Below are positions 3,067 to 62,603 of a DNA stretch of 64,000 bases, piece after piece; within the stretch, counting starts at the first letter, position 1; each line of letters starts with the position of its first letter. The DNA is taken from the IMG/VR virus record IMGVR_UViG_3300042907_001080, positions 1-64,000 of that record. One strand, given 5' to 3'. The translations under genes were made by a program, and so were the position numbers. The DNA comes from a virus. The notes under the pieces were generated by a model. It had not been told where the DNA came from and made no database searches. It saw nothing but the letters and a program-made list of their open reading frames with translations.

Positions 3067-3074
3067 GATAAATA
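3067..3074 (+). promoter_or_regulatory. Late promoter box GATAAATA
   Basis: GATAAATA ends exactly 5 nt before the ATG at 3080. With T4 late geometry (box at about -13 to -6) transcription would begin at the A of the ATG, giving a leaderless message. No ribosome site is present. Confidence 0.65.
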
Positions 3075-6972: not shown

Positions 6973-7212
6973 TTATTTAGCCCACATTAAGTGATAAGCT
7001 AATAGTGTTTGCTGATCGTAGAATTCTGCTACGAGCTTGAAATCGTCGTTGAGTTTATCTACAACTAACTGACATTTTTCTTTGGGCTGTTTATTGATCC
7101 AATTTATTAGATCTACTCCTACAGTTTTATGTACTTTGGGCCAGTCTACTTCTATTATATCTTTACCGTTGCGTGTGTGCCAATGATAAAGTTCAAACCT
7201 ACTACTCTTCAT
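6973..7212 (-). CDS. Hypothetical protein (79 aa)
   Basis: A small alpha/beta-like protein with several Trp and Lys residues (FELYHWHTRNGKDIIEVDWPKV at the N-terminus). No family recognised. Its start overlaps the end of the helicase gene by 11 nt, so it is the next cistron of the helicase operon. Confidence 0.6.
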   Translation of the reverse strand: MKSSRFELYHWHTRNGKDIIEVDWPKVHKTVGVDLINWINKQPKEKCQLVVDKLNDDFKLVAEFYDQQTLLAYHLMWAK

Positions 7213-33419: not shown

Positions 33420-33427
33420 TATTTATC
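33420..33427 (-). promoter_or_regulatory. Late promoter box GATAAATA
   Basis: The minus-strand box ends 5 nt before the ATG at 33414; no ribosome site intervenes. It predicts a leaderless transcript for the glycan operon running down to 28408. Confidence 0.68.
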
Positions 33428-37094: not shown

Positions 37095-38987
37095 TTAATA
37101 GCCTGCTAATTCTCTAATGCGTGATAGTTCTTGAAGTTCTGGATTTTGATCGGTACTCTGCTGTGGTGCCATACGTTCTACAAATTTACGAGCAACTTGT
37201 TCTGCCTGTTCGCCAAACTTCTTGCCTACCATAATAGCAACACCTTCTGGGCCTTTGGGAAATGTGCCTGTGTCACGATCATAAAATGATGTGATAAACT
37301 CTGCTAACTCTTCGGTGTTTAATCTTTCTTTTCTCTTTTCAAAATCACGTTTGGGTTTGTCGTCTTTGTATTCTACATCTTTCATAGTTAACGGTGACTG
37401 GCCTGCTTTTTTTCTATCTACTGCTGGTCTTTCGTAGTCTCTTGGATTGTCGGGATCCACAGCTTCTCGCGGCAATGGCTCTTGTGCAGGCGCAACCGCT
37501 GCCGCTGGATCAACTGGTGCTGGTTCCGCTTCCGGAGCAGTTTGATCAACTCCCTGGGTCGCTTCCGGGTCATCTACCATATCGCCAAAATCCAACTGTT
37601 CTAGTGTTTCAGGTGCATTGAATTCCAACCAATCTTTGACCAATGGTCTTACACATGCATCTGGATCTTGTGCTGCCTGTTCTTTGATTCTTTTATACAA
37701 TTCTGGATCTTCGATTAATCCTTTAAGACTTTCAATGGCGTTGGTTCCATCGACACCTGCTGGGAAGTGTTGTCCTACAAGTTCTTGTAGTCCCTGTAAT
37801 GCTGCTGCCTGCTCTTCAGGATCTTCACTGGTTACCGCACTTTCTTCGCCTAGTGCCATTACCCAATTTTCAAATTGAGCAAATGGGTCATTGTCTTCTG
37901 TTTCAACTGTAAGGTCTTCGTTGTTGATTTCTTCTTGTGTCATAGCGACTATGTCGTCATAGCCTATAGTGCTTCCTTCTTTCATTAGTCTGTATAAGAC
38001 CGGAAACACAGTTGCAATATCTTCTTTAAACGATCTGACTGTGAATTTTTGTTTAAAATCTTCTACCACGTCTTGAGGTATTTCCTCGTTGGGGTTTGCC
38101 TGGAATGATTCTCTGTAAGCCTCGTAGTGACTTTGTTTGCTCAATGCCTTGATCTGTTCTCTAAGATGATTTAGATATTCTGTGCTTCTTTCGACCACTG
38201 AGTTGGTTTCGGAATTCATTAGATCGTTACGGACCACATAGTTACCAAAACTTTTCAACTGTGCAATTTCTTCGCTCATTTGCGTAATACTTTTGCCTAG
38301 ATCATCGTAAGGCAGGCCGCCATTGGCCACATGGCGCTGCATGGCTCTAGCACCAGCTAGATGAATAAATGGATATTTGAATCTTTCACCGTCTTGATTT
38401 TCTACAAACAAGGCACCGATATTTCTGGTTCTAGAACCTGGTTGTGTGTCATCCATCACTGCTTGATTATGTTTAATGATCAAACGTGTGTCCATTAATT
38501 TTTGATAGCTCATTGTTTTGCTACCATACATTGAGCTTTCGCTCATTATGTTTTCACTCATTGTGCTTTCTCCAACTGGTTTTTGTATCGTATTTGTCTG
38601 TGGTTTAGGTTGTGCGTTCTGACTAAGGAATTGATAATCTCGTTTGTCAAGATTGTCTTTGGCAATGTCTCTGGTGTCAAAACTCAATAATCTGCGTTTG
38701 GCAAATTGACGCAGTTCTTTTAAGAATCCGTACCAATTTGTTTTTTGTCCATCATCCATGCCTTCGGTAATTCCATTGGAAAAATACACTTTCATGGAGT
38801 TGGGTTCAGCAAGACTGATGCTGACATGCCCTATGGGATTCTGGCCTTCTGTGTAGTCAAAATCAAAGAATCTTGCCTGTTCCGGATTGATGGTTATCTC
38901 ACCGGTTTCGGCACCTAATTTCAGCCCAGAGAAGCGGCTGCGTACTTTGTAGAATAAATCGGTGGCTATGTTGTTTGTTGCGTCCAT
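37095..38987 (-). CDS. Large conserved virion-associated protein (630 aa)
   Basis: Starts MDATNNIATDLFYKVRSRFSGLKLG, with a beta-rich N-terminal 130 residues, a helical middle (SITQMSEEIAQLKSFGNYV...), an acidic Pro/Ala/Glu-rich linker near 480-530 and a C-terminal helix ending ELSRIRELAGY. The start at 38987 is used because a GATAAATA late box ends 5 nt before that ATG; the longer TTG-started frame would cross the box. It lies directly after the terminase. I think this is a structural protein of marine T4-like phages; function unproven. Confidence 0.65.
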   Translation of the reverse strand: MDATNNIATDLFYKVRSRFSGLKLGAETGEITINPEQARFFDFDYTEGQNPIGHVSISLAEPNSMKVYFSNGITEGMDDGQKTNWYGFLKELRQFAKRRLLSFDTRDIAKDNLDKRDYQFLSQNAQPKPQTNTIQKPVGESTMSENIMSESSMYGSKTMSYQKLMDTRLIIKHNQAVMDDTQPGSRTRNIGALFVENQDGERFKYPFIHLAGARAMQRHVANGGLPYDDLGKSITQMSEEIAQLKSFGNYVVRNDLMNSETNSVVERSTEYLNHLREQIKALSKQSHYEAYRESFQANPNEEIPQDVVEDFKQKFTVRSFKEDIATVFPVLYRLMKEGSTIGYDDIVAMTQEEINNEDLTVETEDNDPFAQFENWVMALGEESAVTSEDPEEQAAALQGLQELVGQHFPAGVDGTNAIESLKGLIEDPELYKRIKEQAAQDPDACVRPLVKDWLEFNAPETLEQLDFGDMVDDPEATQGVDQTAPEAEPAPVDPAAAVAPAQEPLPREAVDPDNPRDYERPAVDRKKAGQSPLTMKDVEYKDDKPKRDFEKRKERLNTEELAEFITSFYDRDTGTFPKGPEGVAIMVGKKFGEQAEQVARKFVERMAPQQSTDQNPELQELSRIRELAGY

Positions 38988-38992
38988 AAGTA

Positions 38993-39000
38993 TATTTATC
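38993..39000 (-). promoter_or_regulatory. Late promoter box GATAAATA overlapping the gp17 stop
   Basis: Minus-strand box, 5 nt before the ATG at 38987; its first two bases (GA) are part of the TGA stop of gp17 (38999-39001). Predicted start equals the A of ATG. Confidence 0.7.
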
Positions 39001-40585
39001 AAAGACCCATACTGACAAAGATCGGCATAGGCATGGATTCATCGGTGATTTTTTCTGTCATTTTATCGTAGATCTGCGGATCCCAGTCCGCTAACACATC
39101 TGCCATGCGCATGATTAACAGTGTTGAACTGACTAAATCGTCATGTTCTCCACTCTTGGCTTTAAAACCCAGCCCTGAAGCAATATATGTTTTTAGCTCA
39201 GATATCAACGGTTTGCTGTTGATAGTCATCTTGTGATTTTCGATCATGTTTTTTAGTTGACTGCAAGCAGATATTTTACTTCTGTGCGTGGTATTAAATC
39301 CTTTACGGAACTTGCGTATGTGTCCTTTGCGGATGGGCTCACTAAGAAACAGTCCATGAAAGTTTTCTTCGCCTATATCGTTGATAACTATCAGAGCAGA
39401 TTCACCTATTGTATTATTTTCAACACTGTAATACATGATAGGTGCACCGCCTCGTTCTTCGCCTCTGTCATGTATGTATTTTAGTATTTCTCTCAAGACT
39501 CTGACCTGTTGCTGCACAGGCGTGGTATTGTGATGCCACTCTGCTACTTGTATCATTTCAGGCATTTCGTAGACTTGGATGGCTCCGTAGTCACCACCTG
39601 TGCCTAGGCTGGGATCTAAAGCTATTAGATATGTGGCTTTGGGATTTATATCTTTATACCAACGAGTCTGCCCCATGTTCATCATAGGGTCTGAACCTGC
39701 AAGTTCAACCAACTTCACAGAGTTGATTAAAGTTTCGTCATAGATCAAGAACTCGCATTCAAACTCTCTACGGAACCGTTCTTCGCCAATCTTGGCACGT
39801 TCTAATCTAGCCCACTCGTCATCCCTGTCTGGATGTTCCTTCCAGTGTGCGAAGAAGGGGAAGAAACCGTTGACTCCTAGTTTAGTTTCATTGCCGAAGT
39901 CGTCAAACCGTTTGTTGGCTTCTAACCAAATCATAGCAAATTGATCTTCGTCACTGTTAGGAGTTGATGTGATAATAGCTTTACCGCCTGTGGCCAGCGT
40001 AGGTGATAATGCTGTCCAGAATTCTTTGGCTTTTTCCGGCGGCTGCACGAATGCAAACTCATCGCAATAGATTAGAGAAAGAGATTTACCACGACCTGTG
40101 TTTTCTGTGGTAGTAGTTGCTTGTATACGTGATCCGTTGTCGTATTCAATGGTGTTTCTGTTGTATGAATACACTCCAGCTCGAATAAAGTCGGGTAAAT
40201 TTTCATAGGCGTATCTATAACGATCCATGATGTCTCGAGCACCTTCATACTTGTGTGCCGCTATCAATACCTGCACATCTGGCATAAACTGTGTATACCA
40301 CAACAGGTATGCCACTGCACATGTAGTCTTACCCATCTGGCGCGGCAACATGGCTATGCATTCTTTGTTTGTGTGATATGCGTCAATCAACAATTCTTGA
40401 AACCCGTAGGGCTCAAATGGTATTGATCCTCTAGTAGGGTGTTGTATCTTGATAAAGTTTTTAGCAAAGTATAGCGGACCGGTTACTGGATCCATACAAG
40501 CTTCTAGATGCTTGACTTCGTCGAGATTATAGCGTATCTGTGCATGGGCTTTCTTAATTAGATTGCCGTCTAAGGATTTTGACAT
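38999..40585 (-). CDS. 17: Terminase large subunit, gp17-like (528 aa)
   Basis: Packaging motor ATPase and nuclease. A Walker A-like RQMGKT at 82-87, Walker B LIYCDEFAF with D175/E176, an ITSTPN coupling motif and the C-terminal RNase H-fold nuclease beginning LIALDPSLGTGGDYGA. T4 gp17 is 610 aa. The promoter ATTAAATA is 5 nt before the ATG at 40585. Confidence 0.92.
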   Translation of the reverse strand: MSKSLDGNLIKKAHAQIRYNLDEVKHLEACMDPVTGPLYFAKNFIKIQHPTRGSIPFEPYGFQELLIDAYHTNKECIAMLPRQMGKTTCAVAYLLWYTQFMPDVQVLIAAHKYEGARDIMDRYRYAYENLPDFIRAGVYSYNRNTIEYDNGSRIQATTTTENTGRGKSLSLIYCDEFAFVQPPEKAKEFWTALSPTLATGGKAIITSTPNSDEDQFAMIWLEANKRFDDFGNETKLGVNGFFPFFAHWKEHPDRDDEWARLERAKIGEERFRREFECEFLIYDETLINSVKLVELAGSDPMMNMGQTRWYKDINPKATYLIALDPSLGTGGDYGAIQVYEMPEMIQVAEWHHNTTPVQQQVRVLREILKYIHDRGEERGGAPIMYYSVENNTIGESALIVINDIGEENFHGLFLSEPIRKGHIRKFRKGFNTTHRSKISACSQLKNMIENHKMTINSKPLISELKTYIASGLGFKAKSGEHDDLVSSTLLIMRMADVLADWDPQIYDKMTEKITDESMPMPIFVSMGL

Positions 40586-40590
40586 ATGTT

Positions 40591-40598
40591 TATTTAAT
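40591..40598 (-). promoter_or_regulatory. Late promoter-like box ATTAAATA
   Basis: Minus-strand variant of the late box, 5 nt before the ATG of gp17 at 40585, just after the terminator of the upstream gene. Confidence 0.5.
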
Positions 40599-40599
40599 G

Positions 40600-40627
40600 A
40601 AAAAAATAGGCTCCGAAGAGCCTATTT
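40600..40627 (-). terminator. Intrinsic terminator after the 40644 gene
   Basis: AATAGGCTC (40605-40613) and GAGCCTATT (40618-40626) form a 9-bp stem with a 4-base loop (TTCG on the minus strand), followed on the minus strand by a T run. It separates the 40644 gene from gp17. Confidence 0.82.
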
Positions 40628-40643
40628 GATTTATTAGTTTATA

Positions 40644-41288
40644 TTAACTGTCTATGGTTTCTGCTGCATCAACAAGGGTTACGGCCACGTCTTTGTAAAT
40701 GTCCGCAAGTGAGTCGGGCAACGTAACAGTCAAAGATTCTTGTATTTCAGCACCTTGACTGCCATCAAACACTCTCATGCTTTTAACGTGATTGGTTCTG
40801 CCAATGGCCTGACCAATTTGATAGCGTAGAGCTTTGGCTGTTGTATCAACTGTAATTGTACCGTCTGTGGTAGCTGTAAATTGGAATGGTGTTCCAATTT
40901 CTGCTCTTGTGCCGCCCAATACGCCGTCTGCTGTGCCTGCACCTGCTGCACCTGCACGATCATATCTCACTGTAAAAGTCACTGCTGTTGCCTGGTTGTC
41001 TGCCACCGTTGCACCAGCACTGGTAAACTGCACGTCTTGAATCTGTGCATCAGCATATTTTTGTAGATTTTCGATAATGGCTAAGAAACGTTGATGAGCT
41101 CTGGCTACACGACGACCAATGGCTAATGTAGTTGGTTTGGTTGTAAATGCACTGTGATCTTGTGGGCATACCGCTCCGTTATCGTTGCCATCTGCTGTAG
41201 GATATGTTCCTGCACCACCAGACAATGTGATTACCACTTGATAAAATTCTGGTCTTAGCGACTCAGTTGAAATTTTAAATCCTGACAT
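40644..41288 (-). CDS. Virion structural protein, beta-rich (214 aa)
   Basis: A beta-rich Ala/Thr/Gly-rich protein beginning MSGFKISTESLRPEFYQVV, with many T-rich strands and a C-terminal acidic end. No enzymatic motif. An AAGGAG ribosome site lies before the ATG and the gene abuts the acidic 225-aa gene by one base. It sits between head-assembly genes and the terminase, so a capsid or tail decoration role is probable but unproven. Confidence 0.62.
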   Translation of the reverse strand: MSGFKISTESLRPEFYQVVITLSGGAGTYPTADGNDNGAVCPQDHSAFTTKPTTLAIGRRVARAHQRFLAIIENLQKYADAQIQDVQFTSAGATVADNQATAVTFTVRYDRAGAAGAGTADGVLGGTRAEIGTPFQFTATTDGTITVDTTAKALRYQIGQAIGRTNHVKSMRVFDGSQGAEIQESLTVTLPDSLADIYKDVAVTLVDAAETIDS

Positions 41289-41965
41289 TATTTTGCTCCT
41301 TTAGCTTCTGACAATCTTTGAAGCAGTTCTTCTCGTATACTAGCACGTAGTTGTTCTTTGCTTTCGTAAGCGCCAGCTGCCATAGGGTTGTCACCGCGAT
41401 ATGGTTTGCCACTGAAGCTTTTCTTAGGCTTGTTTAGATCATTCCCGTCCGGGATAGCAGCGTCAATACCTGCATATTCTGTCTCTGATCCGTTTAGTGA
41501 ATTACCAAATGCTTCTTCTTTGTCTTTTTTCTTTTCCATGTCATGATCATCCATGTCATGGTCACCGTCGTCGTCTTGATCTAGAGTTTTGATCAAGGGT
41601 TTTTCATCTGCGTGATCTTTTTCGTGTGCATCAAGATCTCCGCTGTTATCATAATCGCTGTCCATGTCTGGCAGCATTTTCAATGGAGGTAGTCCGCCCA
41701 TAGGCTTGTCCATAGGTTCGATGCTGATAGAATTCATCGGTGCTGGCTGATTAATCATGTCTGGATTAACTTTGGTCATCAGCTTCATTAGTTCTTCGAT
41801 GTTGTCCATGCCTTGTGCATTGAGATTTAAACTCATGCTTGGTGGCGGTGTGTCTGGTTTCTCTGGCATCGATGGCATGCTCATTGGCATAGGTGAGTCA
41901 CCACAGGCTTCTGTGGCGGGCCTGTCTAATTCCTGCATCTTTGCCATTAGTTCTTGAAAGTTCAT
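41288..41965 (-). CDS. Acidic, Met/Pro-rich head-module protein (225 aa)
   Basis: Starts MNFQELMAKMQELDRPATEACGD. The middle is Met/Pro-rich (PMPMSMPSMPEKPDTPPPS) and then strongly acidic (DQDDDGDHDMDDHDMEKKK), with a C-terminal helix REELLQRLSEA. Such compositions suit scaffold or core proteins that fill the prohead, a role I infer from composition and place. Tightly packed with the neighbours on either side. Confidence 0.58.
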   Translation of the reverse strand: MNFQELMAKMQELDRPATEACGDSPMPMSMPSMPEKPDTPPPSMSLNLNAQGMDNIEELMKLMTKVNPDMINQPAPMNSISIEPMDKPMGGLPPLKMLPDMDSDYDNSGDLDAHEKDHADEKPLIKTLDQDDDGDHDMDDHDMEKKKDKEEAFGNSLNGSETEYAGIDAAIPDGNDLNKPKKSFSGKPYRGDNPMAAGAYESKEQLRASIREELLQRLSEAKGAK

Positions 41966-41967
41966 AG

Positions 41968-42564
41968 TTAATTTCCTTTGCGTGGATCTTGTTTGCCAGC
42001 AGTTGACATTGGACTCATAGATCCAGCTTTGTCTGTTTTTTGCTTGGGTATTTTATATTCAGCAGCAAATCCATCTTTGGTTCTCTGCTTGGCTGTTTTG
42101 CTTAAATCTTTAAGAAACCCTTTGTTAAAATCATCACCAAAATAATCTTTGTGTTTGATTTTTCCTGTGCCTTTGTCTAAATCTTGTTCATCCAACATGG
42201 CTTCACCGCTGGGTTCATCGTCCAGTAATACCTGATCTGCTTCTGTAGGCTCGCCACTGTTTCTAACACGGAAACAATCTTCATCAATGCCCATGGCTTT
42301 GACATGAGTAGCAATTTCAGGCGGTGTTGTAGGATATTCGCAGATCACTTCATATATAGTAACCTGCATGTTTTCTTTGCCTGGAAAATCTAAGGGCAAT
42401 TTTTGTATAGGTGTTGTTGACAGCTTTTCAAAGGTCATAACCTTGCAGCTGTCCAGGCGTGACTTTAGTGCTTCTTGGAATTTTTCAGGAACATCGCCCG
42501 CAACTTTGATCTTAAAGCTGTAAATTTTTTTGTTTTCGACGAGATATTCTTTAAAAGTTTTCAT
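41968..42564 (-). CDS. Hypothetical head protein with capsid-targeting-like leader (198 aa)
   Basis: The N-terminus MKTFKEYLVE matches the shape of the T4 capsid-targeting sequence (MKTYQEFIAE), cut after Glu by the gp21 prohead protease. Residues 15-100 form an alpha/beta domain (IYSFKIKVAGDVPEKFQEAL, VTIYEVICEYPTTPPEI) and the rest is charged, low-complexity and disordered. Inference: an internal head protein that is packaged or processed. A CATAAATA box is 5 nt from the ATG. Confidence 0.65.
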   Translation of the reverse strand: MKTFKEYLVENKKIYSFKIKVAGDVPEKFQEALKSRLDSCKVMTFEKLSTTPIQKLPLDFPGKENMQVTIYEVICEYPTTPPEIATHVKAMGIDEDCFRVRNSGEPTEADQVLLDDEPSGEAMLDEQDLDKGTGKIKHKDYFGDDFNKGFLKDLSKTAKQRTKDGFAAEYKIPKQKTDKAGSMSPMSTAGKQDPRKGN

Positions 42565-42569
42565 ATGAG

Positions 42570-42577
42570 TATTTATG
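42570..42577 (-). promoter_or_regulatory. Late promoter box CATAAATA
   Basis: Minus-strand box 5 nt before the ATG at 42564; predicted leaderless start. It lies inside the 3' end of gp16. Confidence 0.68.
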
Positions 42578-43043
42578 CTTTTCCGCTTAATTTTTTCAGC
42601 AGTTCGTTGCGATCGGTGATCACATAGCCCTGTCCATTTATCACGTTGTTGGGATCTACCCCAGCATCGTTGTCTATTTTTAGTTTTTTCAGCTGTAGAT
42701 CTACAGCTTTGAGTTTCTTTTCTATCTTGTTGCTTTTGGCAGTGATAGCATTGCCCATCATTGAGCTAGCTACTTCAAATATCCTACCCGAATATCTCAC
42801 TTCCACGTTCATACCAAGGTCCATGAGATCGTCGTAGGCTTGTTCTGCTTTTTTGGCAAGATTGTCTAGTTCTTGCTCATCAAGATTTTCTAGTTCTTGT
42901 ATATGTGGCAGTGTTTGCACGATCTTTTGCACTGCTTGATACTGATCATCGAGACTGTTAATTTCTTCATGCACAGGCGGTGGTGGTGCTGTAGGCTCGG
43001 CTTGAGATTCTAAATCAAATAGTTCTTCTAATTTTTTCGTCAT
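42573..43043 (-). CDS. 16: Terminase small subunit, gp16-like (156 aa)
   Basis: A central helical hairpin (LGMNVEVRYSGRIFEVASSMMGNAITAKSNKIEKKL) with flanking acidic N-terminus resembles T4 gp16, which forms rings and regulates gp17. Length is close to T4 gp16 (164). It is separated from gp17 by three structural genes. A GATAAGTA variant box lies 4 nt from the ATG. Confidence 0.75.
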   Translation of the reverse strand: MTKKLEELFDLESQAEPTAPPPPVHEEINSLDDQYQAVQKIVQTLPHIQELENLDEQELDNLAKKAEQAYDDLMDLGMNVEVRYSGRIFEVASSMMGNAITAKSNKIEKKLKAVDLQLKKLKIDNDAGVDPNNVINGQGYVITDRNELLKKLSGKA

Positions 43044-43618
43044 ATCATACTTATCTGTGTTTTAACCCAGTCTCTATATTCTACAGTTTTAAATTCTATA
43101 TCTTTATTCACATACCAGGTTTCAAAATGACATTCACCTGTCCAAGATTTTCTTCTTCTAATAGCAAACACATTATTTACTGCAACTTTGTATCCTTTGC
43201 TATCTAGATATTCTTTTGCAGAATTACATGTTTCCAAAAATCCTTTTTCTTCTCGCCAATAATCGTCATGTTCAAAAGTTATACAGTCAAAAACAATACC
43301 CTGATTGATTACATTTTTAAGTGCCTGCAATGTTAATTCTGGAGGATTAATGTCACAACTCAAATATCCTATTCGATCTTTTAAATTATACTTGTAATTA
43401 ACTGCGTCTGTATAATAGCAAGAATTACCCCTGATGTTAGACCAGTCTGCTTTAAAATCTGCATTAAGTTCTAAACTAATACCCGACCAGCCCTGTTTTT
43501 CTAACAAAAACGTATTACTCAGTTTTATAGGATCTGCTGCACCAATTTCTACATATGATTTGTGATTGCAAATTTGAAGCGCAAAGATATCTTGACCAAC
43601 CTGTGAATAATGCATCAT
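43040..43618 (-). CDS. FkbM-like methyltransferase inserted in the head module (192 aa)
   Basis: Starts MMHYSQVGQDIFALQICNHKSYVEIGA, the FkbM start with motif I, then LEKQGWSGISLELN and FDCITFEHDDYWR. A SAM-dependent O-methyltransferase fold is likely. It lies between gp16 and gp4 with 4-nt overlaps on both sides, an unexpected place for a decorating enzyme; the target could be a virion protein or a sugar on it. Confidence 0.68.
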   Translation of the reverse strand: MMHYSQVGQDIFALQICNHKSYVEIGAADPIKLSNTFLLEKQGWSGISLELNADFKADWSNIRGNSCYYTDAVNYKYNLKDRIGYLSCDINPPELTLQALKNVINQGIVFDCITFEHDDYWREEKGFLETCNSAKEYLDSKGYKVAVNNVFAIRRRKSWTGECHFETWYVNKDIEFKTVEYRDWVKTQISMI

Positions 43619-44055
43619 TTTCTTTTTGATCCTTGATGGAAAATATCACCTTCATTGACCACCCTGAATCTAAGGCCCTGCTGTTTGCACCAAGCTGTGG
43701 CAGCTTCCCATTTGGCCATGTTTTTAATATATTGCTCTTGGTTGTATCGGCTTTTGCCCACCGACTCTCTTAGTGTTTGACTCTGCGGTTTTACTTCAAC
43801 AACTTCTGCATGTTTCTTACCAGTTTTGTCCTTGTAGACCACAAAGAAATCAGGCACATATATTGTGTATTTGCCCGTCAAGGGATCTCTATACGGTATC
43901 TGTATGCTTTCGCTGGCCCAATTTTCTACACCTTGATGCTCATCCAACATGCGCATGAACACAAATTCCCATGAACTACGAGCCAATGGTATTTTCTTGC
44001 CGACATACTTGTCGGGATTTTTCATTTCAAATCGTCCCTGTGCAAATTTAGACAT
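43615..44055 (-). CDS. 4: Head completion protein, gp4-like (146 aa)
   Basis: NPDKYVGKKIPLARSSWEFVFMRMLDEH and WASESIQIPYRDPLTGKYTIYVPDFFV with VVEVKPQ are the gp4 landmarks (T4 gp4 150 aa, nuclease-like fold with E-x-K). Finishes the packaged head before tail joining. It starts within a base of the upstream gene's end. Confidence 0.85.
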   Translation of the reverse strand: MSKFAQGRFEMKNPDKYVGKKIPLARSSWEFVFMRMLDEHQGVENWASESIQIPYRDPLTGKYTIYVPDFFVVYKDKTGKKHAEVVEVKPQSQTLRESVGKSRYNQEQYIKNMAKWEAATAWCKQQGLRFRVVNEGDIFHQGSKRK

Positions 44056-44420
44056 TAGGCAGCGATATTTCTAGTCTTATTGTTATCGACGTTTTGAGTT
44101 CTATATCCCAATATAGATGTAGGCACGCGATTGTTGTTAAGTATTTCTGCAACTATCTGGCTCAATGAAACTCCTGGAAAATTCTTTAGTGTATCTAAGA
44201 TTTGAAAAATAGGTGTATTGTCGAGCTTGGCCTGTCTTAGTACCACTGCTGCAGAAGTTGAGGCAGCATCAAGATCAAATCCAGCCTGTTGAAAAAAGCT
44301 CACTGCGGCAGAGACATCGTTGGAGGGAAACTCTAGAGCAGATTCGCCATAGTTTTCAAAATACAATTTGGTAGCAGCGGCGCTGTCTTCAATGGTCTGT
44401 GATGGTAAGTTTGTAGCCAT
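44055..44420 (-). CDS. Conserved structural-module protein (121 aa)
   Basis: A helical, Ala-rich protein with SNDVSAAVSFFQQAGFDLDAASTSAAVVLRQAKLDNTPIFQ. It lies between gp4 and the tube-like protein in a tight operon. Role unknown; perhaps a small tail-joining or baseplate component. Confidence 0.55.
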   Translation of the reverse strand: MATNLPSQTIEDSAAATKLYFENYGESALEFPSNDVSAAVSFFQQAGFDLDAASTSAAVVLRQAKLDNTPIFQILDTLKNFPGVSLSQIVAEILNNNRVPTSILGYRTQNVDNNKTRNIAA

Positions 44421-44422
44421 GG

Positions 44423-45511
44423 TTAATTACCTGTGATATTGCGTTGTCTAGCATTAGTAGTAGCTTCTGTTGTAGCACTTTTAGGAAACACAGTTCCGAC
44501 AACTCCGCTGACCTTATCAATTGCTGTTGAAATATTTCCTGGGTTACTTAGTATGTTAATGGCTTCGCTAGCCAATTGCTCTTTGCTGAGATTATTGAAA
44601 TTTTTGTAGGTGTTAAAAGTTTTGGCCAAGGTGCCTATAAAACCTCCGGGCGTGTTAAAGGCAGCGCCTGTTCCAACATCACCAAAAATCTGTTCAAGCC
44701 CATCTAGCACACCACCCTCGCCCGTTAGTGTGGCAACACCTCCACCTGCCACACTCAGTGGACTTGGCACAGTGTCATAATGCAAGGTTGCAAATCCTTT
44801 AGGTGTTCCCACAGACACATTGCCTGTGCTGTATCGCACCGCTTCGTATTCCAAGGTCATGGTGCTTTCGTTGAATTCGCTGGCAGAGTAATCCATACCG
44901 CCATGGCTCCATGATTTGATTCGGGGGTTTACTAATGTGTAACCGACAAATCGTCTACGACTCATGGTATAGATAGTTACAGATTTAAAAAAATCCACAC
45001 TCTTGTCATTGTCTAGGCCATATCGAAAATTGTCTTTGTTAGTACCAGTGGCTCTATAATGATTGGATTCGTAGGCAGCGTTGGGATTATGCCTATCGCC
45101 GATGTAGTAGCCATAATACAAAGCCCACATGGCACTTATAACATTGTTGCTGTCATCGTGCATGTTGATGTTTACTGGATCATAATTTATCTGTTTATAT
45201 ACGATCTTTTTTCGATTGTATTGATTCTTTATTACAGAATCAAAATTAAATTTCGGAAGATCGGCACTCTTGACCAATAACCCTGCTTCGTTCTTGTGTT
45301 TGGCACTGAATGGTGACATGCCTCGCACTGAATTATCCATTTCGAAATATACATAAAACAGGAATTTGGTTTTTGGGCTTAATCGTAGATTGTTGTCAAT
45401 AAACAATCTAGTAGCGTGGCGATAATTACTCATTTGACCTTTGGGTTTGGTCACACCCTCAATCAAGCCGGAACCGAATTCTGATAGATATCTTGTGAAT
45501 TTATTTGCCAT
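44423..45511 (-). CDS. Tail tube-fold protein, gp54/gp19-like (362 aa)
   Basis: Residues 40-230 contain a tube-type beta-barrel pattern: NRLSPKTKFLFYVYFEMD-like strands, GLLVKSADLPKFNFDSVIKNQYNRKK, NINMHDDSNNVISAMWALYYGYYI and NESTMTLEYEAVRY. The C-terminal 130 residues are Gly/Ala/Asn-rich. The length is closer to T4 gp54 (320) or gp48 (364) than to gp19 (163), so it is probably a tube initiator or cap. It follows gp19 in the operon. A late box is 5 nt from the ATG. Confidence 0.62.
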   Translation of the reverse strand: MANKFTRYLSEFGSGLIEGVTKPKGQMSNYRHATRLFIDNNLRLSPKTKFLFYVYFEMDNSVRGMSPFSAKHKNEAGLLVKSADLPKFNFDSVIKNQYNRKKIVYKQINYDPVNINMHDDSNNVISAMWALYYGYYIGDRHNPNAAYESNHYRATGTNKDNFRYGLDNDKSVDFFKSVTIYTMSRRRFVGYTLVNPRIKSWSHGGMDYSASEFNESTMTLEYEAVRYSTGNVSVGTPKGFATLHYDTVPSPLSVAGGGVATLTGEGGVLDGLEQIFGDVGTGAAFNTPGGFIGTLAKTFNTYKNFNNLSKEQLASEAINILSNPGNISTAIDKVSGVVGTVFPKSATTEATTNARQRNITGN

Positions 45512-45516
45512 ACAAA

Positions 45517-45524
45517 TATTTATG
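45517..45524 (-). promoter_or_regulatory. Late promoter box CATAAATA
   Basis: Minus-strand box 5 nt from the ATG at 45511; predicted leaderless start. It lies just downstream of the terminator of gp19. Confidence 0.68.
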
Positions 45525-45526
45525 CC

Positions 45527-45559
45527 ACAAAAAAAGCCCGATTTTTAGTCGGGCTTTTT
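45527..45559 (-). terminator. Bidirectional intrinsic terminator between gp19 and the 44423 gene
   Basis: AAAAAGCCCGA (45531-45541) and TCGGGCTTTTT (45549-45559) form an 11-bp stem with a 7-base loop, flanked by A and T runs in both orientations. Confidence 0.85.
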
Positions 45560-45574
45560 GAGCTAATATTACTA

Positions 45575-46225
45575 TTAACCTTGTGCTGTAGAAGCGCCTG
45601 TAGTAGCTGCACCAATAGTTCTTCCTACTGCTGCGCCAATACCACCTATTGGGCTTACTGCTGCCGCACCAGCTGCAAACTGTGATAGATTATCGTAAAC
45701 AATCGACAATGCTACAGTCATATGCTCATTGGTGCTGTAGTTTGCATCACCGTAGTCTGCATTTTGAATGAAACATCCATATAGTTCAAATGTTTCTAAA
45801 GTGCTCGGCACTAACAATCCGTTGCCCCCGTCAAGAACTTCTATGCGTGTGGTAAATTTGTAGTCAATACCTGAACGTGCTGAAGCCTGTTCCATGAAGT
45901 CAAACTGTTTCTGGATCTGCTGTCCTACCATTTTCTGAACTTGACCACTAGCATCATCACGCAATGTTAATGTAATTGGTTCTAATGTGTGTCTGCCAGC
46001 CAATTTAACTTTGGAGTTATAGACATCCAGCGTCATTTCTTCAAACGCCACTTTGGGTCTAGTAACATCTTGCACCTGTTTGGTAAGTTCAGTGGCTGCG
46101 GTAACTCCAAATCCCAACAGTGTAACTCTGAAGCGATATTTTAATTTTGGCATCAACAGCACTTGAGTGCTGCCAGCTGCGTTGGTAGTTGGAATACCAA
46201 TGTTATTAAGCGATGTAATTGCCAT
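45575..46225 (-). CDS. 19: Tail tube protein, gp19-like (216 aa)
   Basis: Forms the inner tail tube. MPKLKYRFRVTLLGFG, QDVTRPKVAFEEMTLDVYNSKVKLAGRHTLEPITLTLRDD and TRIEVLDGG-TLETFELYGCF are gp19 hallmarks. A Gly/Ala-rich C-terminal extension of about 30 residues exceeds the T4 size (163). A strong AGGAGAAATTTAAAAATG ribosome site is present. Confidence 0.88.
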   Translation of the reverse strand: MAITSLNNIGIPTTNAAGSTQVLLMPKLKYRFRVTLLGFGVTAATELTKQVQDVTRPKVAFEEMTLDVYNSKVKLAGRHTLEPITLTLRDDASGQVQKMVGQQIQKQFDFMEQASARSGIDYKFTTRIEVLDGGNGLLVPSTLETFELYGCFIQNADYGDANYSTNEHMTVALSIVYDNLSQFAAGAAAVSPIGGIGAAVGRTIGAATTGASTAQG

Positions 46226-46227
46226 TT

Positions 46228-49200
46228 TTAAATTTCTCCTGTGTTCTTGATACGCAATGGAATGTAAATGAACTCAATGGCTTTCACTGGCTCTATGGCG
46301 ATATCAACATAAAGTTCGTTGCGATCGATACGAGACGGAGTATTATTGCTTTCATCACACACAACCGCAAAGTCGTAGATTGCTCTCAAGCCTACCAATT
46401 CCAACAATAGGCTTTCTGCCGCTTGTTTGATTTCATCTCTGGTAATCTTGTCGTTGGGTTCGAACAAATATGGACGAGCCAACTTGTTCAACTGGCTACG
46501 TAGATATACTACCAATCGTGCTACGTTGATACGATCTAGTGCTGATGCATTTCTTGCACGAGTCTTTTGACCGTAAGCCACAAGTCCTACTCCGTTGAAG
46601 AATGGAATTGGATTGACCTTTAATTCATATAGTGTATCACGTTGGCCTTCGTTGAGTGCTACAGTTTGGAACTCACCTGTGGCAGCATCAATATAACCCA
46701 CTGCTGTGGCATTTGTAATACCGCCACGACGTGTTCCTGCTGGTGCAAACCATGGGAAGCTGACATTATCGCTGAGTGCGATAGTCTTCAGCATCATGTG
46801 ACTTGCTGGAACCACTGCATTAGAACCACTTAGGTCAGTGGTAAATCCATTTGGATAGTATGTAGCCAAGTATTCATCATAGGTTACAATGCCGTCATCG
46901 CCGTTGTCTGTGACTAATTCTGCATTAGTTCCCCAGTTGTTCAATGATGTAGCATCTGCAGGCAATCTCAATGGAGTATCACCTATGACAAATGCTGTGA
47001 TACCTCTGTCAATGTTAAGATTAACTAGATTGCTCATTGTTTCTGGATATCCTGGGCAAGCTATGATGTTGAAGTTTCTGCGTTCTTCATCACGGATCTC
47101 TTGACTTGTGTCAATCACCGACTTCAAGGCCTGTGTAACTACCTTGCGTTGTGCTTTGCGACCAAAACTGCCTGATCCGTCTTCGTTGTTGCCTGACGCT
47201 GTAACCCAACGATCTGGATAGTAGCTTTCCATAGTTTGGCCTGAACCGCTAACAAATGGGTCACCGTTATTAGTACCGCCAGATTGGCTTGTGCGTGGAT
47301 TATCTGTAGCAGTATCAATATAGTTGTTGCGATATTGCTTAACGTTGCCGCCGCTACGTCTTAGATTCCACAGCAACATACCTTTTGGATATAGTGCTGG
47401 ATCTGGAGCATCTGGGTCTAGGAAGTTGTTGGTAATCAAGTCGGCAATGTCATCACTAGGTGCTGTAGTAGCTGTACCACCACTTGTACCTTGACGAGCA
47501 TCTGCAAACAGCACACCTTCTTCTGTGGTTTGATCTGTCTTATCAACCAATTCCCAACGCAGTGTAACATCACCGATGTCGGTCAAATTGCTGTTGTATC
47601 TATAAATTGTTGGGAAGTTTTCTAGATCAGCTGTGCTGATCCACAAATCACCTGTGACAGTAACGCCTGACACATATGGATTGCTGGCAGCTACTATTGG
47701 TAAGTAACCGGTTCTCTTTGTCAACGCTGTGTCGTCAGTTTGATTAAAATATGGTGCTGTGCTGTGTCTATATCCCACCCATGTGTTGCCATTATGAACC
47801 ATAATGTCAACATCAGCAAAGTTAGGATTGTACCATAGTTGTTGATCTGCTGCTTCATTCAATGGAGCATCTGGACTGGCTGAGAATCTTGGATCTTGTG
47901 CGGCTAACGGCTGATAACCTGAAGCTAGATAGTCTTGTGCAGCACCTGCAGCAAGATCTTCTGCGCCTGCAGCACCACTACCCAATGAAATATTGTAGAA
48001 GTTTTCTGTGCCAGCTCTGGTCTTGATGTTGTATGGAGTGAATAGAGTCGACAATGGATTACCTGTGCTGTCTGTGAGTCTAAAATCGCCACCGTCATTG
48101 TGAGTAATTACCAATCTGCTCTGTGTTAGGGTAATCTGCACCACAGAGGCTTCGATGTTTGTGAAGCCGGCTGCGTTGATAGCAGCAGCAAACTTGTCTG
48201 CATCGCTGTTGTCGCCTGTAGGCGCATTTCCCGCGGCTGTTGACAAAGTAATGGTTTTGGCAGCATCTAGAGCCAACTGTCCTACTATGCTTTCAGCCAA
48301 GGTAAATGTTCTAGTAGAAGCAGCGGTAAAGGTTCCACTTTTGATAATGTTGGATGTAATGCTGGTGCCCTGACCTATACCTATATGTCTATACCACATA
48401 CGGAATTCAGCTGTGTCTGGAGTTGCGTCAAATCCACTGTGTTCTTGTGCATTGCTCTGTACAAACACTGTATCTGCTGAGATGTTAGCACCACCTCCAC
48501 TGCGATCTAGATAGTAAAGTGCAGCATTGGTAGATGCATATATAGGAGCTTCTGATGCTACCCACGATAATGTAGCTGAACTCCACTGCTTGGCTCTCCA
48601 TCTAGCGCCGTTGTTTGGCTCTGTGGTTTTAATCCATACAGACCCTGTAGCATATCCCTGCAATGAGGTTGGGTTATCACTGCGCTTGTAAGTCGGCACA
48701 TCTGTGTGCGGTGATTGTTGCAGTTTAGGGCTGAGGTATAATCCGGTGTCAATGCCAATGGTGCTCCAGCTTGCTGTGCCATTTTCTAACTTTATCTGTC
48801 CATCAGCAGACAATGCACTGTCTCCAACTTCAACATTAGTGTTTTCTCCTAATGATCTACCATCGGAATAGATGTATAACTTATTACCCAACATCTTTGC
48901 TGTTACACCCACGATACCGGGTGAATTGATGTTGTTTGCGATTTGTGTTAAAGTTCCTGCAGTAATTTGTTGGGCGTTAACGAATAAAGTGCCCGACAGT
49001 GTTCCCGAGTATGTGTTACTTACTGCTACTGGCCAGCTGGCTTTCCACGCATTGGAACCTATCAATACCCATTCGCCTGCATCAACTGGTGTGCCGCCGG
49101 CACTTACCCCGCCATTGCCTGGAGACTTGTAATATATTCTTGCCAAGTCATTTGCAGTTGTATATGCAGCAGCTTCACCTACAGTTTGAAATACTACTGC

Positions 49201-49782
49201 ATAATCTCCGATCTGTCCTACAGATGTTTTAGGAGCATTGTTTTCAATTTTAGAAGGACTGTCTGCATCTGTTAGCACTAACGGTACTTTGTTAGTAAAT
49301 TTCTGTCCGCCGGCTGTTGATGCTGCGGCACTGTTCCACTCTTGGATACCCCAAGTTGTGGCCTGTGTGTCCATCCACCATTTGCCGTTTACAGGGTTCG
49401 CTCCCGGGGCATCTACTTCTGCTGCGAGTTGGTCTAGATCTACATCAGCTCGAACAATAAATGCCGCGTTGCTTACACCTAGCAAACTATAGGCTGCTAA
49501 TAGTCCATATTCGTTGCGCTCTGAACCATGGATAGGAGTTGAACTCGCTGTCTGTTCAAAGAACGGAATCCCAAAAAGATCTGTGAGATCTCTCTGACTC
49601 GTAATTTTAAATGCCTTGCCAGCATTTGCTTTGGTTGTTGCTGAAGCTGTGTTTGTTCCAGCTCCGTTTGTTTTATCTTGGGCTGTAGCTACGACGATAA
49701 GAGGAACCGTACCAGGTTCTGCTGGTGTATAAAAACTCTCGTCGATTACCGTAACTTGTACGCCTGGTGATGTTAGTGCCAT
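46228..49782 (-). CDS. 18: Tail sheath protein, gp18-like, enlarged (1184 aa)
   Basis: The contractile sheath. N-terminal SPGVQVTVIDES and C-terminal blocks (NFNIIACPGYPETM, ITAFVIGDTPLRL, FPWFAPAGTRRGGI, NARNASALDRINVARLVVYLR, FVEPNDKITRDEI-type) mark gp18. It is about 1.8 times the T4 length (659), with a large Ser/Thr/Asn-rich insertion around residues 200-820, probably displayed on the sheath surface. AGGAGA lies 10 nt from the ATG, with a CTAAATAT box upstream. Confidence 0.9.
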   Translation of the reverse strand: MALTSPGVQVTVIDESFYTPAEPGTVPLIVVATAQDKTNGAGTNTASATTKANAGKAFKITSQRDLTDLFGIPFFEQTASSTPIHGSERNEYGLLAAYSLLGVSNAAFIVRADVDLDQLAAEVDAPGANPVNGKWWMDTQATTWGIQEWNSAAASTAGGQKFTNKVPLVLTDADSPSKIENNAPKTSVGQIGDYAVVFQTVGEAAAYTTANDLARIYYKSPGNGGVSAGGTPVDAGEWVLIGSNAWKASWPVAVSNTYSGTLSGTLFVNAQQITAGTLTQIANNINSPGIVGVTAKMLGNKLYIYSDGRSLGENTNVEVGDSALSADGQIKLENGTASWSTIGIDTGLYLSPKLQQSPHTDVPTYKRSDNPTSLQGYATGSVWIKTTEPNNGARWRAKQWSSATLSWVASEAPIYASTNAALYYLDRSGGGANISADTVFVQSNAQEHSGFDATPDTAEFRMWYRHIGIGQGTSITSNIIKSGTFTAASTRTFTLAESIVGQLALDAAKTITLSTAAGNAPTGDNSDADKFAAAINAAGFTNIEASVVQITLTQSRLVITHNDGGDFRLTDSTGNPLSTLFTPYNIKTRAGTENFYNISLGSGAAGAEDLAAGAAQDYLASGYQPLAAQDPRFSASPDAPLNEAADQQLWYNPNFADVDIMVHNGNTWVGYRHSTAPYFNQTDDTALTKRTGYLPIVAASNPYVSGVTVTGDLWISTADLENFPTIYRYNSNLTDIGDVTLRWELVDKTDQTTEEGVLFADARQGTSGGTATTAPSDDIADLITNNFLDPDAPDPALYPKGMLLWNLRRSGGNVKQYRNNYIDTATDNPRTSQSGGTNNGDPFVSGSGQTMESYYPDRWVTASGNNEDGSGSFGRKAQRKVVTQALKSVIDTSQEIRDEERRNFNIIACPGYPETMSNLVNLNIDRGITAFVIGDTPLRLPADATSLNNWGTNAELVTDNGDDGIVTYDEYLATYYPNGFTTDLSGSNAVVPASHMMLKTIALSDNVSFPWFAPAGTRRGGITNATAVGYIDAATGEFQTVALNEGQRDTLYELKVNPIPFFNGVGLVAYGQKTRARNASALDRINVARLVVYLRSQLNKLARPYLFEPNDKITRDEIKQAAESLLLELVGLRAIYDFAVVCDESNNTPSRIDRNELYVDIAIEPVKAIEFIYIPLRIKNTGEI

Positions 49783-49874
49783 ATCGCCTATTCTCCTGGT
49801 AATAGTTGCTCATAATATTTAGCATACTATTCCAAAAACAGCAAGTTAGGCACCGAACAAAAGGGGTCTAAAAG

Positions 49875-49882
49875 GGTAAATA
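49875..49882 (+). promoter_or_regulatory. Late promoter-like box GGTAAATA
   Basis: A + strand box 4 nt from the ATG at 49887; a variant of the near-leaderless geometry. Confidence 0.45.
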
Positions 49883-49886
49883 TCAA

Positions 49887-50225
49887 ATGCGACCACTATG
49901 CAAGGCCTGCGCACAGCGACCTAGAGCCATTAATTACTACAAAGACACTCGTGCCTATTACAGAACACTGTGTGAAATCTGTCTAGCACACGGTGCAAGT
50001 GCTCATGTTCCACGTTGGCAACGAGCAGGATACAAACCCAAACCCGTGTGTGAAAAATGCGGGTTTCGATCTCAACACGCCGAAGTATTTCGAGTGTTTC
50101 ATGTAGATGAAAATCTCAACAACTGCAGACCCTCAAATCTCAAAACCGTGTGCTTGAACTGCGCTGCTATCTTAGGCAAAGAGGGTATAACTTGGAGGCA
50201 AGGCGATCTTATTGCTGACTACTAG
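49887..50225 (+). CDS. Zinc-ribbon/HNH-like protein (112 aa)
   Basis: Paired CxxC motifs occur at CKAC (5-8), CEIC (31-34), CEKC (54-57) and CLNC (94-97); the last two frame FRVFHVDENLNNCRPSNLKTVC, which resembles an HNH nuclease (H-D-N...N-L...C-x-x-C). It may be a homing-type or repair nuclease, or a zinc ribbon. The 3' 54 nt overlap the end of the convergent dNMP kinase gene. Confidence 0.65.
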   Translation: MRPLCKACAQRPRAINYYKDTRAYYRTLCEICLAHGASAHVPRWQRAGYKPKPVCEKCGFRSQHAEVFRVFHVDENLNNCRPSNLKTVCLNCAAILGKEGITWRQGDLIADY

Positions 50226-50828
50226 GTTTGCACTCTGCTCGTAAAGTTCATCGATGCTGCCATTGTTGTCGATGATCTTGTCAAAATCACTGCCCAGCCA
50301 TGCCCATTCCGATGCATGTATTTTACGCATCTTCATGGCGTTTAGCCCTACATTATTGCCTTGATTGGCGCTGATAGCATCCTCATACCAGTCAGGCAAC
50401 TCACCACGCTGCACCCAAACAATTTGGCCGCCTGCATCTTTAATTGATTTAATTTCATTGGGGAAACGGCAGTCTGAAATTACAATATGATCTTTGCTGA
50501 GACGCAGTTTGTTTTCTAATGAAGCAATCCATATGTCGTCGTGGAACGACCTACGACAGACTTCTGTTCCCCAGTATTGTAGAACCCATCTAGGAGTTAA
50601 TGTGGGCATGTCTAAACGTGCTGCCCACCAAGGATCTACTTGTTCACGCCATTCTCGAGCCTGTGCTGTGCGCCCTTCCAGCATGGTTCGATCCCAGCCA
50701 AACACGCTGGCCACGGCATCTTTGAGTGTTGAAGCAAAACTTTCTCTGCGAAATTCGTGAAAATTAACTAGATAGTCGGCTACAGTGTCTTTGCCCGAGC
50801 CTATGAAACCGCATACACCTATAATCAT
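50172..50828 (-). CDS. 1: Deoxynucleoside monophosphate kinase, gp1-like (218 aa)
   Basis: Phosphorylates dNMPs for phage DNA synthesis. P-loop GFIGSGKD (7-14), a lid/base region WREQVDPWWAARL and VLQYWGTEVCRRSFHDDIW, VISDCRFPNEI and a final adenylate-binding segment. T4 gp1 is 241 aa. A TTGACC-N17-TATAAT promoter gives a leader with AAAGGGGAC. Confidence 0.88.
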   Translation of the reverse strand: MIIGVCGFIGSGKDTVADYLVNFHEFRRESFASTLKDAVASVFGWDRTMLEGRTAQAREWREQVDPWWAARLDMPTLTPRWVLQYWGTEVCRRSFHDDIWIASLENKLRLSKDHIVISDCRFPNEIKSIKDAGGQIVWVQRGELPDWYEDAISANQGNNVGLNAMKMRKIHASEWAWLGSDFDKIIDNNGSIDELYEQSANLVVSNKIALPPSYTLFA

Positions 50829-50848
50829 AAATTGTCCCCTTTAGAACA

Positions 50849-50877
50849 ATTATAATATAGATTAGTTATAAGGTCAA
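50849..50877 (-). promoter_or_regulatory. Sigma70 promoter (TTGACC-N17-TATAAT) for gp1
   Basis: Minus strand: TTGACC (50872-50877), 17 bases, TATAAT (50849-50854), then a leader with AAAGGGGAC before the ATG at 50828. Unlike the leaderless promoters, it has a ribosome site. Confidence 0.8.
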
Positions 50878-51632
50878 CCAGTTATCCAGGTATATCCGCT
50901 GCCGCCGGGAACCAATTTCATCAGATCGTCGGTGAGTTTTTCCATCTCAGTTTGACCTTCTGTGATCAGTGCTGTACCATTGAGTTGAGTACCACCCTGC
51001 GGACCTGCGATCTGTCCAAACTTGCTTCGAGCCTGTCCTAGCATCATTTTGCAGTTGGCTAACGCATAGTCTTTGATCCACTGTCCGGAATACACATCAT
51101 CAATAATCACAAAGTCAGGTCGGCTATTGTATACCTGCAACATCACAGATTCTTCGCCGCGAGGACGTTGATGTATGATCAGCTTGTGACTCTGTGGATG
51201 CCATGTGTAGTTAATAAATGAACCAAACATCTTGCCTACCAATTCTTGATACTGTGCAAACAGTTCATAGGTTAGCAAGCCGCCCATATTCGTTGAACTC
51301 AACAAATAGGTATTGGCATAGGCCAAGTTAAATGGCTCAAACACCGTTCCACCCGTTCCATTACCCGTTCTTGATCCCACCGATCTGCGGAATATCTGTC
51401 GAACCTGCTGTATTTCTTTGGGCAGGATATATTCGTTGGTGCTTTCTGTGAGGGTTAAAAACGCATAACTTTCTTCCACAGCGTTGTCGCTACGCTGACG
51501 GAAAACTGCTAGAGCACGATTAAGTGCTGTGTCGTAGTGGATGGGATCTAGTTCTACATCTACCATACCATCGCCTAGCATGGTTTTGCAGTAGTTGTAT
51601 ACGGAATTTTTGGCTTGATCTGATGTGCTCAT
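50874..51632 (-). CDS. 13: Neck protein, gp13-like (252 aa)
   Basis: The head-to-tail connector. AKNSVYNYCKTMLGDGMVDVELDPIHYDTALNRAL and the C-terminal WIKDYALANCKMMLGQARSKFG, TQLNGTALITEGQTEMEKL match the gp13 pattern. T4 gp13 is 309 aa. The GATAAATA box is 5 nt from the ATG. Confidence 0.82.
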   Translation of the reverse strand: MSTSDQAKNSVYNYCKTMLGDGMVDVELDPIHYDTALNRALAVFRQRSDNAVEESYAFLTLTESTNEYILPKEIQQVRQIFRRSVGSRTGNGTGGTVFEPFNLAYANTYLLSSTNMGGLLTYELFAQYQELVGKMFGSFINYTWHPQSHKLIIHQRPRGEESVMLQVYNSRPDFVIIDDVYSGQWIKDYALANCKMMLGQARSKFGQIAGPQGGTQLNGTALITEGQTEMEKLTDDLMKLVPGGSGYTWITG

Positions 51633-51637
51633 ACGAG

Positions 51638-51645
51638 TATTTATC
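51638..51645 (-). promoter_or_regulatory. Late promoter box GATAAATA (gp13)
   Basis: Minus-strand box 5 nt from the ATG at 51632; paired back to back with GGTAAATA on the + strand at 51651-51658. Confidence 0.7.
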
Positions 51646-51650
51646 GTAGC

Positions 51651-51658
51651 GGTAAATA
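51651..51658 (+). promoter_or_regulatory. Late promoter-like box GGTAAATA (gp14)
   Basis: A + strand box; with the 5-nt rule the predicted start is at about 51664, two bases before the ATG at 51666. Confidence 0.5.
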
Positions 51659-51665
51659 TATGACT

Positions 51666-54634: not shown

Positions 54635-54642
54635 GTATCTGC

Positions 54643-55038
54643 ATGCAACAGCGTGCCGGATTATTATTTTTAGCTAAAACCACAGGTCGCATATTTCTAA
54701 TCTTAGATGATGAGCGATGGACTGTGCCTACCTTTCAACGCAATAACAGTCTTCTAGAGGATGCAGACGCATTGTTAACTCAATACGCACAGGGGCGTAT
54801 AGTTCCTATCGAACTGTATCTATCTGAAGATCGCGGGTTTGAGTATGGCACCTATGTGTGCGTGGTCGATCAAGAGTTTTTGACTATGGCGTCAAAGACT
54901 GTATGCTGGGCTGATTTAGATTGCCTTCCCAAACAACTACACTCGGGATTGAGAACTACATTAAATAATCAAGTAATACGTGTGAAAATAGAAACCATAT
55001 TGGAGTTAGAAAATGTCAAGTCTGTTACAAAAATCTAG
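54643..55038 (+). CDS. Degenerate Nudix-like protein (131 aa)
   Basis: Starts MQQRAGLLFLAKTTGRIFLILDDERWTVPTFQR, which has the fold opening of Nudix hydrolases, but the catalytic box G-x5-E-x7-REUxEExGU is not present, so it is probably inactive or only binds. A frame from 54607 also exists, but the 54643 start does not overlap gp15. It is coupled to the following 92-aa gene by a 26-nt overlap. Confidence 0.55.
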   Translation: MQQRAGLLFLAKTTGRIFLILDDERWTVPTFQRNNSLLEDADALLTQYAQGRIVPIELYLSEDRGFEYGTYVCVVDQEFLTMASKTVCWADLDCLPKQLHSGLRTTLNNQVIRVKIETILELENVKSVTKI

Positions 55039-62595: not shown

Positions 62596-62603
62596 TATTT
62601 ATG
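62596..62603 (-). promoter_or_regulatory. Late promoter box CATAAATA
   Basis: Minus-strand box 6 nt from the ATG at 62589; predicted leader of one nucleotide or none. Confidence 0.6.

Follow-up and report, generated by a model that had tools for sequence, protein, structure and literature searches.

Late transcription of phage T4 is a textbook system, whose late promoters stand at a distance upstream of the genes, so that the mRNA carries a leader. The Thermus phage phiYS40 differs from T4-type phages in both promoter class and phage lineage. Most of its middle and late mRNAs lack a leader, and infected cells have more IF2 and less IF3 (PMC3594737). For leaderless late mRNAs in T4-type phages, no report was found in the open-access literature (subscription papers and preprints lay outside the scope, and absence is not proof), and the word "leaderless" is absent from a review on cyanophage late promoters (PMC2984593).

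Here, we analysed the first 64,000 of the 281,658 nucleotides of a virus record (G000), a window in which an earlier note had described late promoter boxes set about 5 nt before start codons and had predicted leaderless late mRNAs. We consider it highly probable that the position of T4-type late promoters in these phages lets transcription start on the A of the start codon or no more than 1-2 nt away from it, the mRNAs being leaderless and translated from the 5'-AUG, and that ordinary leadered promoters coexist with them. The leaderless late mRNA is a strong inference from sequence, with no mapped transcript 5' ends in these phages. What had been presented as a feature of one window is here a trait conserved across a large phage group, borne by a minority of late genes beside leadered late genes.

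On sequence grounds, the window derives from a T4-type jumbo phage, i.e. an uncultured giant relative of T4. It holds a T4-type structural block (terminase large subunit [TerL], tail sheath, tail tube, head-tail adaptor gp13, head closure and sheath stabilizer) and also encodes UvsX and a single-strand binding protein. The remainder of the record was analysed as 20-kb stretches; a gp55-type late sigma gene was located in the record at 104,078-104,920 (-), matching phrog_12791 (1.7e-80) and phrog_234 (3.2e-24), and no match to the gp45 clamp or the gp33 coactivator was obtained with Pfam models, in searches that lacked a positive control. Megablast against phages returned no close phage record for the window, and the nearest cultured relatives by TerL were the PA5oct-like Pseudomonas jumbo phages (54-59 % identity). 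The only clue to the host was one weakly informative match, to a contig binned as Betaproteobacteria TMED41, whose TerL region carries TAAATA 6 nt before an ATG. The record also has 27 clustered tRNA genes, which serve most amino acids, at about 265.9-272.3 kb (L012:5947-12250), and one tRNA-Glu lies apart in L007.

The boxes located in the window are given in Table 1, where the gap is the number of nucleotides between box and start codon; boxes with a gap of 4-6 nt are referred to as near boxes. All those that the earlier note had placed exactly 5 nt before a start (3080, 33414, 38987, 40585 with TTAAATA, 42564, 45511 and 51632) were found in the sequence. The boxes it had listed at 4-6 nt were likewise present with their spacings (gap 4 at 6969, 43043, 49887 and 62016, gap 6 at 62589), but the GTG at 62016 is weak: it was not called as a gene, and pooled near-box starts in the clade were ATG in 92/92 cases. 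One near box, that of the plus-strand gene at 54643, had been overlooked.

Table 1. Late promoter boxes and associated features in the window.
Feature	Positions	Strand	Remarks
ATAAATA late box	3068..3074	+	Gene start 3080, gap 5
CTAAATA late box	6974..6980	-	Gene start 6969, gap 4; layout also in G009
ATAAATA late box	33420..33426	-	Cytidylyltransferase/cupin gene start 33414, gap 5; kept in 4/5 genomes
Virion structural protein, predicted leaderless	37095..38987	-	phrog_13484, 4.9e-17
ATAAATA late box	38993..38999	-	Head/structural gene start 38987, gap 5; overlaps terminase stop codon; kept in 7/8 genomes
Terminase large subunit, predicted leaderless	38999..40585	-	tblastn to many annotated TerL; Shine-Dalgarno site absent in 10/10 clade members
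TTAAATA late box of TerL	40591..40597	-	ATG 40585, gap 5; layout in 142/145 TerL homologues of at least 70 % identity
Intrinsic terminator TAGGCTC-TTCG-GAGCCTA-T7	40600..40624	-	Adjoins TerL late box; 14 nt left to ATG
ATAAATA late box	42570..42576	-	Gene start 42564, gap 5; kept in 7/9 genomes
ATAAGTA late box	43048..43054	-	Terminase-small-subunit-like gene start 43043 (weak phrog_445 match, 4.8e-4), gap 4; at end of upstream gene; 10/10 genomes
ATAAATA late box	45517..45523	-	Tail-tube-like gene start 45511, gap 5; 10/10 genomes; phrog_4542, 7e-13
CTAAATA late box of tail sheath gene (contrast, leadered)	49816..49822	-	33 nt before ATG 49782; AGGAGAA between; Shine-Dalgarno site in 9/9 clade members
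GTAAATA late box	49876..49882	+	Small cysteine-rich ORF start 49887, gap 4
ATAAATA late box	51638..51644	-	Head-tail adaptor (gp13/Ad2) gene start 51632, gap 5; 8/9 genomes; phrog_211, 1e-34
GTAAATA late box	51652..51658	+	Divergent head-protein gene (51660-53057); phrog_11591, 3.7e-79
ATAAGTA late box	54631..54637	+	Gene start 54643, gap 5; 9/10 genomes
ATAAATA late box	62596..62602	-	Gene start 62589, gap 6

Some of these loci call for further description. Just upstream of the box at 45511, a GGGC-T7 run is a probable terminator (not folded). The cysteine-rich ORF at 49887-50225 (+), HNH-like by eye, runs counter to the structural block, with the sheath and kinase genes on either side, and the motif of its near box recurs at the corresponding place in several relatives. 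For the divergent head-protein gene, a start at 51666 (gap 7) is more likely than one at 51660 (gap 1), because the first ATG, 51660, begins 1 nt past the late box. Divergent pairs with ATGs only 27-28 nt apart, and a spacer filled by two back-to-back late boxes, were seen in two phage lineages: at 51632 (-)/51660 (+) in the window, at 246945 (-)/246973 (+) in G000, and at 18916 (-)/18943 (+), 27 nt apart, in the cultured Pelagibacter phage HTVC008M. Such a pair amounts to a minimal late promoter that works in both directions and serves near-leaderless genes.

ATAAATA followed by 5 nt and ATG was found 6 times in the window, against a mean of 0.43 and a maximum of 3 in 300 dinucleotide shuffles, and ATAAATA alone was not over-represented (16 seen, 20.7 expected). 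Scans for exact 7-mer spacing that were not anchored on genes gave modest peaks only, and the test was therefore anchored on gene starts; these were picked on coding potential alone, with boxes and ribosome sites disregarded, and the expectation was taken from the 40-93 nt background. The TAARTA core stood 4-6 nt before the start of 21 genes in G000 against 0.8 expected (P 4.8e-23), and of 92 genes against 3.9 expected in ten related contigs (P 3e-90). As the ten contigs include near-identical genomes, the pooled P overstates independence, which the single-genome P does not. In the related contigs, no excess was seen at 7-15 nt (12 vs 11.7 expected), and a second, broader excess appeared at 16-32 nt (84 vs 22 expected). 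The observed spacing thus departs from the shuffled control, and the outcome named beforehand as refuting the prediction, a distribution no different from shuffled sequence, was not met. Over the whole window, the TAARTA core was under-represented (64 seen vs 104 in shuffles), as if selection acted against stray late promoters.

The two positions differ in the presence of a Shine-Dalgarno (SD)-like site, which was seen at 3/92 starts of the near class, 58/80 of the far class (16-32 nt, counted at the nearest box) and 300/679 genes without a box (Fisher near vs far, P ~3e-23). The claim that the near starts have no ribosome site also stood, as no SD was present at -18..-5 of those listed starts that the gene caller kept. 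The far class is the familiar T4 arrangement and provides an internal control, i.e. one element at two positions, and the ribosome site is missing only where the late box leaves no room for it. In both classes the core is TAA(A/G)TA, preceded mostly by A (68 % of the near class, 55 % of the far class). The definition of a T4-type late box (TATAAATA-like, 8 bp at -13 to -6, without a conserved -35 element) is met; no fixed motif was seen in the columns up to -16, the -35 region itself not having been profiled.

Bacterial RNA polymerase favours a pyrimidine at -1 and a purine at +1. Among 56 nonredundant genes with gap 5, the base before the ATG was T in 79 % and C in 21 %, and never a purine (0/56); a pyrimidine was found at -1 in 21/21 gene families with gap-5 members, against 53 % at other starts without SD (P ~1.5e-6). 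Wider gap-5 sets gave T136 C15 G1 (TerL identity 50-60 %) and T240 C26 A1 (75 % or more). This strict -1 pyrimidine, taken with the preference of the polymerase, points to the A of the ATG as +1. With gap 4, T was found at -1 in 15/23 clade genes, and the leadered class lacked a sharp start-site signature where one would be expected. The published position of the T4 late box, -13 to -6 (PMC1524935), leads to the same inferred transcript start, since a 5-nt gap then sets the ATG at +1.

The near layout is shared by at least two contigs in thirteen orthologue families, in several of them by 10/10, with a gap sequence that varies (among gp13 orthologues: ctcgt, gttat, cttgt, gtagt, caagc, acagt and ctagc). 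SD sites were found in the clade at the sheath (9/9), tube (10/10), major capsid (5/5) and protease (5/5) genes, and at 0/47 of the TerL, TerS-like, gp13, tube-like and 38987 head-protein genes taken together; the portal and several hypothetical genes followed neither pattern. Both states can be met among orthologues: the baseplate wedge gene, encoding 1143 aa in G000 and 1126 aa in G011, has the leaderless layout with gap 5 in the former (L004:11044-14475 +) and the leadered one, with gap 18 and aggac within the leader, in the latter (L118). This pair offers a natural comparison of the leaderless and leadered modes.

At TerL, the near layout was present in 31/31, 73/76 and 38/38 homologues of 90-100, 80-90 and 70-80 % identity, and in 18/21, 50/67, 48/55 and 1/8 of those at 60-65, 55-60, 50-55 and 45-50 %. 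A TerL tree of 77 rows contained one supported clade (100/98) of 63 dereplicated rows, 47 of which have the near layout. PA5oct is nested inside this clade without the layout and looks like a secondary loss of the trait; T4, Syn9, GAP32, Vibrio 2.275 and Phosso fall outside it, also without the layout. About eight to ten label changes were counted on the tree, and the layout was therefore gained, lost or shifted repeatedly. The terminator upstream of the gene ends two bases before the TerL box, and no ribosome site occurs in the 14 nt between its T-run and the ATG. Terminators abutting the TerL box, with differing stems, were found in 77/84 nonredundant close relatives, 9/16 intermediate and 6/69 distant ones. 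An mRNA from upstream would therefore stop there or carry a hairpin beside the ATG, and the TerL mRNA should be leaderless or nearly so, whatever the exact promoter.

In a wide survey, TAAATAN{4,5}ATG was counted against its reversed control. A phage contig of 499,572 bases and 57 % GC (G020) had 103 matches vs 0 in the control and the layout about 76 times; 60 of its 171 TAAATA hexamers stood exactly 4 nt before a called start, TAAATA at 4 nt was the commonest fixed-position hexamer at starts, above any SD hexamer, and two GTG figured among the 22 examples listed. G020 probably uses a variant of this design with a 4-nt gap. G was found at -1 in 36/60 of its gap-4 starts, so that the pyrimidine rule fails for the 4-nt class; the transcript may begin at this G, leaving a 1-nt leader, or the rule may differ. 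G017 (578,292 bases) had 55 matches vs 0 in the control, yet only 5/154 called genes had the layout in the 120 kb analysed. A clear excess over the control was seen in G012, G013 and G016, and none in T4, KVP40, Cr30, phiM12, PhiW-14, GAP32 and Munch. In the first 50 kb of HTVC008M, 9/62 depositor-annotated starts were at gap 5 and 1/62 at gap 6, and four had boxes at 16-32 nt, all with an SD (4/4). The near-box genes of this phage include those for the tape measure, DNA end protector, head closure, baseplate tube cap and baseplate wedge, SD sites are kept at sheath, tube, portal, protease and capsid, and a terminator-box module like that of the terminase lies at 75559, behind the capsid gene. 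A link with bS21, a phage-encoded ribosomal protein, was rejected: it is absent from G000 and the close contigs and present in phages both with and without the near-box trait, with no simple association.

In the mechanism that we propose, host RNA polymerase carrying the phage gp55-type sigma would read the near boxes, and the first transcribed base would be the A of the ATG or lie at most 1-2 nt away, so that the late mRNAs would have no leader or one of 0-2 nt. Translation, whose mode is inferred, would then follow the 5'-AUG route and not the SD, and leadered late promoters 16-32 nt upstream of SD-bearing starts would operate in the same phages. The leaderless reading put forward in the earlier note thus gains support from the observed spacing, missing SD sites, -1 pyrimidine, kept gap length, gp55-type sigma gene and abutting terminators, with the transcript start itself inferred.

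The near boxes could also be real late promoters, the main mRNAs nevertheless arising by read-through from upstream with coupled translation and the closeness to the ATG reflecting genome compactness, a reading that we regard as unlikely. Coupling is possible at several boxes, which were correctly reported to lie inside the upstream gene or its stop codon (overlapping the stop at 38987, in or next to it at 43043 and 42564), but in 77/84 close relatives the TerL terminator separates the box from the upstream gene, the gene at 51632 is divergently transcribed and has no upstream gene, and compactness leaves unexplained the two-position spacing peak, the fixed -1 pyrimidine and the kept gap length.

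We give very little credit to the view that TAAATA near the ATG is no promoter and acts in the mRNA as an AT-rich translation signal standing in for the SD. AT-rich 5' regions can aid initiation without an SD, which, like the near class being without SD sites, counts in its favour. However, the same box is found at 16-32 nt together with an SD, and T4 and Syn9 show enrichment nowhere else; its sequence agrees with the published gp55 promoter (PMC1524935) in a genome that carries a gp55-type sigma; and the terminators beside it and its occurrence in divergent pairs resemble the setting of a promoter. Just as improbable, in our judgement, is a misassignment of the start codons, the true starts lying downstream behind ribosome sites: the start calls are computational, but the residues right after the ATG are common to homologues (ATGGCAAAATC in TerL, ATGCAACAGCG at 54643), and the depositors' starts in HTVC008M give the same spacing.

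If late transcription is indeed leaderless at the near boxes, its likely use would be a compact promoter-plus-start without 5' UTR, giving modest output for the low-copy terminase, neck and baseplate proteins, with capsid, sheath and tube keeping strong SD leaders. Low output from leaderless genes vs high output from leadered ones fits the SD pattern, but may only be inferred from T4 gene identities, as protein amounts were not measured. We suggest, tentatively and with more doubt than conviction, that in this large and mostly uncultured phage group protein dosage could be set by the position of the gp55 box, a shift of about 20 bp switching a gene between SD-led (high-copy) and leaderless (low-copy) expression, possibly with a late ribosome state favouring leaderless messages. 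The near-box layout is a real, conserved and little-known mode of phage gene expression, in which a promoter of the T4 late type appears to serve as a translation start as well, in phages found in many metagenomes; if so, leaderless translation would be an ordinary feature of their life cycle. The spacing also provides a rule for correct start-codon annotation, and the cultured HTVC008M makes a direct test possible.

Compared with known systems, the present phages resemble T4 in the TAAATA core with a variable upstream base, the lack of an apparent -35 element, the gp55-type sigma and the structural genes downstream. The T4 box, in contrast, stands about 20-30 nt or more before the ATG and a leader is present (0 boxes at 4-6 nt vs 23 at 16-32 nt). 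The NATAAATA late promoters of the cyanophages S-PM2 and Syn9 (PMC2984593) have a box nearly identical to the present one, but in Syn9 none is placed 4-6 nt before any called start (near/far 0/17). PA5oct (Arenbergviridae) shares a gp55-type sigma and a similar structural gene block, whereas its boxes are mostly 16-32 nt upstream, with SD (near/far 3/41). The nearest precedent is phiYS40, likewise a phage expressing many of its later genes without leaders; it has another host, and in the present phages the near-box genes are a subset of the late genes, the high-copy genes staying leadered.
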